Source: Sphingosinicellaceae bacterium
Lineage (GTDB): Bacteria > Pseudomonadota > Alphaproteobacteria > Sphingomonadales > Sphingomonadaceae
Reading direction: 5' to 3'
Assembly: GCA_019285715.1 (NCBI GenBank)
Contig: CP079108.1
Coordinates: 2,867,001 to 2,931,000, forward strand
DNA: 64,000 bases
In this document: in pieces, positions 21,059 to 50,848 of the stretch
Layout of the letters: every line of letters starts with the position of its first letter
Numbering within the stretch: position 1 is the stretch's first letter
Program-made: the position numbers and the translations under genes
The notes under the pieces: model-generated
Databases searched by the model: none
The model's input: only the letters and a program-made list of their open reading frames with translations
Told to the model about the DNA's origin: nothing

Positions 21059-21091
21059 ACTTCACGAGCCTTCCCGCCCACAACCACAACT

Positions 21092-23888
<2,797 letters not shown>

Positions 23889-48395: not shown

Positions 48396-48764
48396 TCAGG
48401 CCGGCTTGAACGCGATACCCAGTCGGTCGGCCACCACCTCCAGGCGCTTGTCGTTGGTCCATAGAGTGCCCGACGCGGTCAGGAGGACCGAGGCAATAAG
48501 GTGCGCATCGACGTAACCGACGCCGATGCCGTGCAGCGGCGCACTTTCGATCAGGCTCATGACCTCGCGCTGCTCGGCCACCGGAGCCGGTGGCATAAGA
48601 TGCATTTCGGCGAGCAGGGCGGCGCGGTGCGGCAGGTTACCGAGCGACAGTCCGCCCTGCACAAAGGGATGCATCGTGGTTTTGCGATCAGCCGGCAACG
48701 CCTTCAGGAGGCCGCCGCCGCGACCAAAAAAGTCGGCCCAGATCATAGTGTCGACAGGGATCAC
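48396..48764 (-). CDS. vapC: VapC-like PIN toxin with altered active site
   Basis: A 122-residue PIN-domain protein from a GTG start. VDTMIW (Asp5), GYVDAHLIASV and LWTNDKRLEVVADRLG carry three of the four expected acidic residues. In relatives the MHPFVxGEL segment supplies the catalytic Glu; here it reads MHPFVQGGLSLGNL, so residue 38 is Gly. A single base change from GAA would explain this. The adjacent antitoxin gene has a frameshift, so the pair is probably decayed. Confidence 0.85.
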   Translation of the reverse strand: MIPVDTMIWADFFGRGGGLLKALPADRKTTMHPFVQGGLSLGNLPHRAALLAEMHLMPPAPVAEQREVMSLIESAPLHGIGVGYVDAHLIASVLLTASGTLWTNDKRLEVVADRLGIAFKPA

Positions 48765-48782: not shown

Positions 48783-48963
48783 TTACGCGGCCCGGGCTCG
48801 AAAACCGGGCATCGTCCCGCCAAGCTGCGCAAGCCGCCTGCCAGCTTCGCGCTCGACGAGTTCGCGGACCGCACACTGAATCAGCGTCGACCGTTCGACG
48901 ATACCGGTATAGCGCGCTGCCGTCGCCATCATGTCGTCGTCGAGGGTTTACCGTAGTCCGCAT
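48783..48963 (-). pseudogene. vapB: vapB antitoxin with +1 frameshift after codon 5
   Basis: From the ATG at 48963 the frame reads MRTTV, then an extra A in the run at 48947-48949 shifts it. In the other frame the sequence continues TLDDDMMATAARYTGIVERS and ends LAQLGGTMPGFRARAA before TAA at 48783, which is a normal VapB. Translation could restart at ATG 48932 for a 49-residue product, lacking the N-terminal DNA-binding beta-strand. The vapC start lies 18 bp downstream. Confidence 0.8.
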
Positions 48964-49008
48964 CACACGTCTCCACACTGCACGCATCACACGTCTCCAC
49001 ACTGCACG
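48961..49008. repeat. Perfect 24-bp tandem duplication over the vapB start
   Basis: 48961-48984 and 48985-49008 are identical. On the minus strand each unit carries a GGAGACGTGTGATG, so the duplication copies the ribosome binding site and start codon of vapB. Confidence 0.9.
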
Positions 49009-49042: not shown

Positions 49043-50848
49043 TCAGCGTCGCCCGAACAGCTTCTCGAGGTCGCCCTTGGCCAGTTTCACCCACGTCGGG
49101 CGGCCGTGGTTGCACTGGCCGGAGTGCGGCGTGACCTCCATCTCGCGGAGCAGCGCGTTCATCTCGGCAACGCTCAGCGTTCGCCCGGCCCGCACGCTGC
49201 CGTGGCACGCCATCGTCGCGGCGACGGCGTCGAGCTTCTCCTTGAGGCCGAGCGCACTGCCCCAACTGGCGAGGTCGTCGGCGAGGTCGCGGATCAGGCC
49301 CTGGACGTCGGTGGTGCCGAGCAGCGCGGGCACGGCGCGCACCAGGATCGCGGTGCGCCCGAACAGCTCGACCTCGAGGCCGAGCTCGGCGAACTCGGCG
49401 GCGCGCTCGGCGACGGCGCCGGCGGCCGTCTCGTCGAGCTCGACGACCTCGGGGAGCAGCAGCGCCTGGGACTGGACACCGCCGTTCGCCAGCGCGCGGT
49501 TGAGGCGCTCGAGAGTCAGGCGCTCGTGGGCCGCATGCTGGTCGACGAGGACAAGGCCGTCCTCGGCTTCGGCGACGATGTAGGTCGCGGCGATCTGCGC
49601 GCGGGCGACGCCCATCGGGAAGCTGTTGAGGGGCGCGGGGGCTTCGGTGCGGGCGAAGGGGGCGGCGGTGTCGGCGAACATGCCGCCCGCATAAGTCCCA
49701 TCCCTAACCCTTCCCGTACCGGAAAGGGAATCCGTATGTGGGGAGTACTCCCCCCAAGCGGGTCCCCCTCCCGGTACGGGAGGGGTTAGGGGTGGGCCTT
49801 CTTCTGTCCGAAACGCCCCGAGCGCGAATGCCGCCCCTGTCGTCGACGCCCGGTGCCCCGCCGCATCCAGCGCCCGCCGTAACCCGCCAACGATCATGCC
49901 GCGCACCAGCCCGGCATCGCGGAACCGCACCTCGGTCTTCGCCGGGTGGACGTTGACGTCGACGAAGTCGCCGGGGACGTCGAGGAACAGCGCCACCACC
50001 GGGTGCCGGTCGCGCGCTAGCAGGTCCATGTAAGCCCCGCGCACCGCGCCGACGAGCAGGCGGTCGCGCACCGGACGGCCGTTGACGAACAGGAACTGGT
50101 GGTCGGCGACGCCGCGGTTGTAGGTCGGCAACCCCGCCAGCCCGCCGAGCCTCAGCCCCTCGCGGTCGAGATCGAGCGGCACCGCATTATCGGCGAAATC
50201 GAGCCCGAGCAGCGCCGCTAGTCGCGCCGGCAACCCGGCATCGCCGGCCTCCCCGGCTTCCGCGGCCAGCAGGCGCCGGCCATCGTGGCGCAGCTCGAAC
50301 GCCACCTCGGGGCGCGCCATCGCGAGGCGGCGGACGACGTCGAGGCAGGCACCAAGTTCGGACCTTTCGGTCTTCAGGAACTTGGCGCGGGCGGGCACGC
50401 GGGCGAACAGCCCCTCGACGGTGACGCGGGTCCCGACGGCGAGCGCGGCGGGGCCGTCGGCGGTCGTCGTGCCGTTATCGATGGTCACCGCCCAGCCCTC
50501 GTGACCCGCCGGGCGGCTGGCGATGGTCAGCCGCGCGACGCTGGCGATCGACGGCAGCGCCTCGCCGCGAAAGCCGAGCGTCACGATCGCTGCCAAGTCG
50601 TCGCCGGGCAGCTTGGAGGTCGCGTGGCGCTGCACCGCGAGCCGGATCTCGTCGGGCGGCATGCCGTGGCCGTCGTCGGTGACCGACAGATGCGCGATGC
50701 CGCCGGCACTCAACTCGATGACAACGCGGCGCGCACCGGCGTCGAGCGCGTTCTCGACCAGCTCCTTCAGCGCCGCCGCCGGGCGCTCGACGACCTCGCC
50801 CGCCGCGATCTGGTTGACGAGGTGGTCCGGCAGTCGGCGGATCGGCAT
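49043..50848 (-). CDS. mutL: DNA mismatch repair protein MutL
   Basis: This 601-residue GHKL ATPase links MutS mismatch binding to repair. The ATPase domain has IAAGEVVERPAAALKELVEN, DDGHGMPPDEI and LGFRGEALPSI. The C-terminal dimerisation domain has the endonuclease motif LVDQHAAHERLTLE, plus ACHGSVRAG and the terminal CNHGRPTWVKL, so it is the nicking type. The proline/glycine-rich linker is encoded partly by a palindromic repeat at 49697-49796, in frame. It is divergent from mreB. Confidence 0.96.
   Translation of the reverse strand: MPIRRLPDHLVNQIAAGEVVERPAAALKELVENALDAGARRVVIELSAGGIAHLSVTDDGHGMPPDEIRLAVQRHATSKLPGDDLAAIVTLGFRGEALPSIASVARLTIASRPAGHEGWAVTIDNGTTTADGPAALAVGTRVTVEGLFARVPARAKFLKTERSELGACLDVVRRLAMARPEVAFELRHDGRRLLAAEAGEAGDAGLPARLAALLGLDFADNAVPLDLDREGLRLGGLAGLPTYNRGVADHQFLFVNGRPVRDRLLVGAVRGAYMDLLARDRHPVVALFLDVPGDFVDVNVHPAKTEVRFRDAGLVRGMIVGGLRRALDAAGHRASTTGAAFALGAFRTEEGPPLTPPVPGGGPAWGEYSPHTDSLSGTGRVRDGTYAGGMFADTAAPFARTEAPAPLNSFPMGVARAQIAATYIVAEAEDGLVLVDQHAAHERLTLERLNRALANGGVQSQALLLPEVVELDETAAGAVAERAAEFAELGLEVELFGRTAILVRAVPALLGTTDVQGLIRDLADDLASWGSALGLKEKLDAVAATMACHGSVRAGRTLSVAEMNALLREMEVTPHSGQCNHGRPTWVKLAKGDLEKLFGRR
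49697..49796. repeat. Palindromic repeat embedded in the mutL linker
   Basis: The ends (about 49697-49722 and 49772-49796) form long imperfect inverted repeats containing CCGTACCGG-type cores, with a perfect 14-bp palindrome GGGGAGTACTCCCC at 49740-49753 in the centre. It resembles a mobile REP-like element. The mutL frame stays open across it and it falls between the ATPase and C-terminal domains. Confidence 0.8.

Follow-up and report, generated by a model that had tools for sequence, protein, structure and literature searches.

Palindromic repeats of different families in the reading frame of the sphingomonad MutL linker

How a palindrome came to lie in the middle of an intact mismatch repair gene, and whether MutL is an unusual host for one, are the questions raised by the mutL locus of this Sphingosinicellaceae bacterium. 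We followed the feature from its structure through the rest of the genome (G000) to the mutL genes of related genomes.

A two-hairpin palindrome within mutL

In the window (the whole stretch of 64,000 nucleotides analysed here), the initial annotation placed a REP-like inverted repeat of about 100 bp at 49697-49796 and proposed that it adds coding sequence to the MutL linker without breaking the frame. A palindrome is indeed present there, although its full extent is 49693-49800. Two arms of 54 nt each (49693-49746 and 49747-49800), 81% complementary and with a loop of 0 nt, make up a 108-nt element of two inverted hairpins, which belong to a family that a covariance model detects elsewhere in the genome (family F1, Table 1). 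The arm at 49754-49797 is near the F1 consensus and is itself part of the training set of the model, R1, by which it is scored. The gene is unbroken over its 601 amino acids, and the insert, residues 350-386, lies between the DNA_mis_repair domain (residues 211-327) and the MutL_C domain (residues 417-558; both above Pfam cut-offs). This places it in a linker that is predicted to be disordered, because pLDDT is below 50 for residues 335-404 in an AlphaFold2 model computed with 24 sequences.

The strong mRNA hairpin that had also been suggested is borne out by prediction: folded as RNA, the coding strand of the element reaches -82.6 kcal/mol (z = -7.90, with 0 of 200 shuffles equally low), as compared to z values of 0.41 and 1.43 for two 122-nt control stretches of equal length from the same gene. 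The mutL element of G001, the only other genome of the genus sampled, folds at -97.6 kcal/mol. No RNA family was found at the site at Rfam gathering thresholds. In an inverted-repeat scan of 150 mutL genes, described below, this palindrome had the joint top score (29). We conclude that the palindrome in mutL is real, far beyond chance, lies in frame, and belongs to a dispersed repeat family.

Table 1. Features of mutL in the window, and genomes with an element of family F1, F2 or F3 in the MutL linker
Feature	Position	Strand	Evidence or genomes
mutL, 601 codons, intact	49043..50848	-	ORF without internal stop; Pfam HATPase_c_3, DNA_mis_repair and MutL_C above cut-offs
Two-hairpin palindromic element, family F1, in frame	49693..49800	.	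MutL residues 350-386; core GPPLTPPVPGGGPAWGEYSPHTDSLSGTGRVRDGT
Arm 1 in mRNA order, small hairpin CCCCTCCCGTACCGGGAGGGG	49754..49797	-	Covariance model R1, 64.7 bits
Arm 2, more decayed	49696..49738	+	Covariance model R1, 36 bits
MutL interdomain linker, residues 335-404, predicted disordered	49637..49846	-	AlphaFold2 pLDDT <50
F1 in MutL linker			G000, G001, G004, G189
F2 in MutL linker			G154, G148, G028, G170, G108, G029, G168
F3 in MutL linker			G185, G091

Elsewhere in the window, a perfect 24-bp tandem duplication (2.1 copies, 48959-49008) lies just downstream of mutL, and near it are two small minus-strand ORFs, of which the one at 48396-48764 is PIN-like by eye, without a Pfam match. 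A TPP riboswitch (76 bits) is located at 21086-21193.

The F1 family and its other hosts

Counting similar repeats genome-wide, a check proposed with the initial annotation, supports its description of the feature as a repeat. With up to two mismatches allowed, the 4.43-Mb genome contains 15 matches to the arm pattern (reversed-pattern control, 0), and the covariance model, trained on 15 arms of this genome including that of mutL, identifies 36 arms at E<0.01, which group into 22 places. Of 24 genomes from the same bacterial family, counting G000 itself, 19 contain F1 arms at E<=0.01, as does 1 of 16 from other families. In the mutL copy and in most places with more than one arm, the arms are paired in opposite orientation, i.e., as two inverted REP-type hairpins. 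Arms or elements also occupy what seems to be the same locus in both species of the genus (G000:C1:1764000-1764427 and G001:C1:1231902-1232390); in G000 these are two single arms approximately 340 nt apart.

REPINs consist of two inverted REP-type hairpins, about 100 bp in total, and occur together with a RAYT transposase. The F1 element resembles them in its two inverted hairpins but differs in that no Y1 transposase is found in the four F1 genomes. The RAYT domain Y1_Tnp gave 0 matches in G000, with 5 of 14 control genomes positive, and was found in 0 of 4 F1 genomes (G000, G001, G004, and G189, the last 88% complete); the 6 of 12 searched genomes that do contain it all lie outside these four. 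It is also missing from two genomes of family F2, G148 and G170. No GTAG tag, in its exact form, stands at the foot of the hairpin in the F1 arm consensus, as judged by eye from the aligned arms.

Open frames read through the 22 places of G000, without gene calling, revealed F1 copies in frame in MutL, PutA, the lipoyl linker of PDH E1-beta, LigD, and a MiaB/MtaB-type methylthiotransferase. PutA, PDH E1-beta and LigD score over their NCBIfam cut-offs; the methylthiotransferase scores over the MiaB/RimO family cut-off and under that of the MtaB model itself. One further copy forms a C-terminal extension of HisH, a single hairpin lies within a frame that is PabB-like by eye, and the remaining places were taken as intergenic or unclear. 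Frames were likewise read through 7 further places of G004 and 11 stretches of G001; in G001, among the best 23 of 26 arms, in-frame elements were found in MutL, LigD and the MiaB/MtaB-type protein, the latter two being the frames covered by a domain check.

The repeat had been called mobile, and for the family this is best supported by the occupied and empty sites of the PDH E1-beta copy, as judged by comparing sequences. The copy is absent from four of the five genomes searched (G001, G134, G004, and G021), and the fifth, G013, gave only a weaker PDH E1-beta match without the linker; in G001 the match breaks off at query residue 96 and resumes at 140 after 3 nt, a clean empty site. By eye, the PutA linkers of G001, G134, G013 and G004 carry no element and are too divergent for exact comparison; because putA linkers differ so much among relatives, insertion cannot be separated from replacement there. 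The flanks of the copies compared are too diverged in relatives for a target-site duplication to be read.

At mutL itself, neither a base-exact empty site nor a target duplication is readable among relatives' linkers, because the linker is hypervariable, and mobility is better seen at the PDH E1-beta copy than here. The close relatives, in which a look for an empty site had been proposed, do differ: within genus g64, G189 has a related element and G134 has none, a difference that is not base-exact. In G004 one arm of the element is kept. G001 has the same element in the same place and frame, with an alignable centre, in a MutL that is 80% identical to that of G000, and because of this shared position the insertion probably predates the split of the two sampled species of the genus. 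On a MutL tree built without the linker, F1 requires 2 changes.

Elements in MutL linkers across the family

A search of 199 genomes of the family gave a MutL match in 193, and 150 mutL genes (30 + 120) were examined among the matches listed, which were ordered by similarity to the MutL studied here. With a threshold of 14, an ungapped inverted-repeat scan was positive in 12 of 150 linkers (30,288 nt) vs 2 of 150 remaining gene parts (239,718 nt); when the codons of each gene were shuffled once, 14 was exceeded in 1 linker and in the non-linker part of 6 genes. Cross-similarity between elements at E<=1e-3 identified 11 linkers, with 0 N-terminal parts, 0 C-terminal parts and 0 of 750 codon-shuffled linkers. 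Together with two CGTC-type elements from the inverted-repeat scan, this gives 13 of 150 MutL linkers with an element that belongs to one of three families. A palindromic repeat in mutL is therefore not rare in this bacterial family, although the initial annotation held mobile repeats in a mismatch repair gene to be unusual. Four of the 13 (L080, L140, L165, and L044) were included by similarity and not by the inverted-repeat threshold, and three of the 12 linkers positive in the scan (L064, L053, and L050) reach that threshold, match no element family, and stand outside the 13. The linkers of G129 (L055), G054 (L060) and G052 (L137) look by eye like worn elements; having passed none of the tests, they are excluded from the count. 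An element is lacking in most of the 150 genes, and the mutL sequence was not found in distant relatives with conservation at the codon level, a finding that would have argued against a mobile repeat.

By eye, neither F1 nor F2 arms bear a GTAG or CGTC tag, and F3 starts with CGTC. The number of F2 arms differs between genomes (66 in G154, 70 in G029, 15 in G148, 11 in G028, 2 in G170, and 1 in G091; reversed control, 0). MutL linkers contain 0.43 elements per kb, as compared to 0.005 per kb in the G000 genome, and F2 has genome-wide densities of 0.001 to 0.011 per kb in four genomes, a range from which the F2-poor G170 and G091, which would be lower, were excluded.

Named relatives supplied 80 further loci, of which 76 were usable (in 4 the linker borders were not found) and some overlap the 150-gene set. 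Three of these carry an inverted repeat in the MutL linker that matches an element family and are additional to the 13: Sphingomonas hylomeconis (L248) and an alphaproteobacterial MAG (L259), both with F2, and Sphingomonas sp. bin06 (L244), with F3. Weaker element similarity was seen in Sphingosinicella sp. CPCC 101087 (L242) and in L278, and L249 and L319 reach the inverted-repeat threshold and match no element. Outside the linker, mutL showed no element similarity at any of the 76 loci.

As a control linker we used the stretch of FtsZ that follows its conserved domain, in which 89 genes (48,942 nt) yielded 0 inverted repeats and 0 element matches. The genes were 89 of 90 (L388 was dropped, its frame being unresolved) from 148 genomes with a match, and the first batch was weighted toward genomes with a MutL element. 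Fisher's exact test gave p = 0.0019 for 13 of 150 MutL vs 0 of 89 FtsZ linkers and p = 0.0032 for the 72 genomes with both genes (8 vs 0), values that are guides only because related genomes are not independent. The comparison is with one control linker, FtsZ, and is no evidence that MutL stands out among linkers in general.

Because some relatives carry different palindromes in the same linker, the MutL linker seems to take in palindromic repeats more than once. On a quick MutL gene tree without bootstrap, where gain and loss are not distinguishable, the presence of elements requires at least 9 changes (by family, 6 for F2, 2 for F3, and 2 for F1). Within genus g91, G091 carries F3 and G154 carries F2, and species of one genus with different families imply at least 2 separate insertions. 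The mutL insert of G154 differs from that genome's other copies by 0 and 1 mismatches in 30. We also weighed whether all F2 copies share a single origin and find this less likely in view of these near-identical copies and the changes on the tree.

The frames in which the elements are read are consistent within families. In the five F2 genes in which both arms are recognisable, 10 of 10 arms are in one frame (patterns one base shorter being allowed for L058 and L140); judged by eye from the peptides, the frame of L248 and L259 agrees with F2, and three F3 genes likewise agree with one another. However, only one or two of the three coding-strand frames are open through each of nine elements tested, so the choice of frame is narrow and the agreement could be due to chance. 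Pro, Ser, Gly, and Glu are abundant in the peptide read from the elements.

Explanations for the elements in the MutL linker

In-frame palindromic elements are a known phenomenon. Rickettsia belongs to another order of Alphaproteobacteria than the sphingomonads. Its palindromic elements (RPE) are described in the available text of PMC2229807 and PMC10969869 as repeats of ~105-146 bp that form in-frame fusions in unrelated protein genes. The mutL element is like them in its ~100-150 bp size class and in that F1 copies lie in frame in unrelated proteins; unlike RPE, different families have entered one linker in sphingomonads, and the likeness is one of description, not of sequence. According to the available parts of PMC3733652, GTAG and CGTC REPs occur within genes, many of which serve replication and repair, and CGTC families are present in sphingomonads, e.g. 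S. wittichii and S. chlorophenolicum. The same paper describes a recB REP at about the same site in two Xanthomonas species and proposes flexible linkers or mutator effects for intragenic REPs; its main text does not mention mutL or mutS (the list of intragenic REPs sits in the supplement). F1 is like these REPs in occurring within genes, including repair genes, and unlike them in that F1 and F2 lack the tags by eye. Our literature search for mutL and palindromic repeats found no report of MutL as a repeated host; in the available part of PMC3390384, mutL appears solely as a tree gene.

Taken overall, the mutL palindrome is very likely a non-autonomous, REPIN/RPE-like repeat of ~100 bp, a selfish insertion kept by a tolerant linker. 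The arrival of the two-hairpin element in the mutL linker most likely preceded the separation of the two species sampled in this genus. Such elements would behave as selfish DNA that spreads through an enzyme acting in trans, and those insertions that disrupt the reading frame or a folded domain would be purged. The MutL linker may be permissive owing to its length, its disorder and its tolerance of changes in length, and elements that can be read through in frame would supply residues rich in Pro, Ser, and Gly. We expect mismatch repair to be nearly unaffected by the insert, and tolerance of the disordered linker is the most likely cause of the pattern in MutL. It seems unlikely that the linker is instead a preferred landing site or a selected host in sphingomonads, with independent entries, one frame each, that tune mismatch repair.

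A related proposal, which we regard as distinctly improbable, is that the inserted residues or the mRNA hairpin lower the amount or activity of MutL and so produce weak or transient mutators that are sometimes favoured in repair genes. It would accord with the hairpins predicted for G000 and G001 (-82.6 and -97.6 kcal/mol), with the elements in the LigD linkers of both, and with the available text of PMC3733652, where many repair genes contain REPs and mutators are speculated on. However, both congeners keep an intact mutL with its insert at 80% MutL identity, and the other hosts PutA, PDH E1-beta and the MiaB/MtaB-type enzyme are unrelated to mismatch repair. Moreover, no mutator phenotype is reported in the available text of PMC6902014 for E. 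coli MutL lacking 40% of its linker. According to that text, shortening the linker does abolish roadblock bypass in vitro, so the linker is not wholly function-free.

That one ancient palindrome stood in the ancestral linker of the family and was lost many times is very improbable. The shared frame of the five two-armed F2 genes, and the position of all seven F2 inserts after a conserved LxxW segment (by eye), would fit such a history, but it does not account for three families in the linker or for the difference between G091 and G154 of one genus, and the close match of the G154 insert to that genome's own copies is unlike an ancient remnant. Scarcely credible is the view that the palindrome is not a mobile repeat but serves mutL as a conserved functional element, at the level of RNA or of protein: although a strong hairpin is kept in G000 and G001 and one stem change in the decayed arm appears compensatory by eye, Rfam gives no match for the site at gathering thresholds, a palindrome is missing from most of the 150 relatives, and copies of this repeat lie both in other genes and outside genes. 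Selection on the element at the RNA level was also considered, and the single by-eye compensatory change is insufficient for it.

With selfish insertion into a tolerant linker as the preferred reading, what merits following is that three element families are present in MutL linkers of related genera. In a genome-stability protein, a single disordered linker is occupied by different families in related species and differs between close relatives, a natural experiment in which mobile palindromes turn into protein sequence and a model for the lengthening of disordered protein regions by selfish DNA. Because close relatives differ at this linker, the mutator suggestion of PMC3733652 is testable.

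The LigD interdomain linker (L017 of G000 and L221 of G001) also carries an element in both congeners. Because the hairpin loops of the two differ, LigD may be a second repair-protein linker that was entered more than once.
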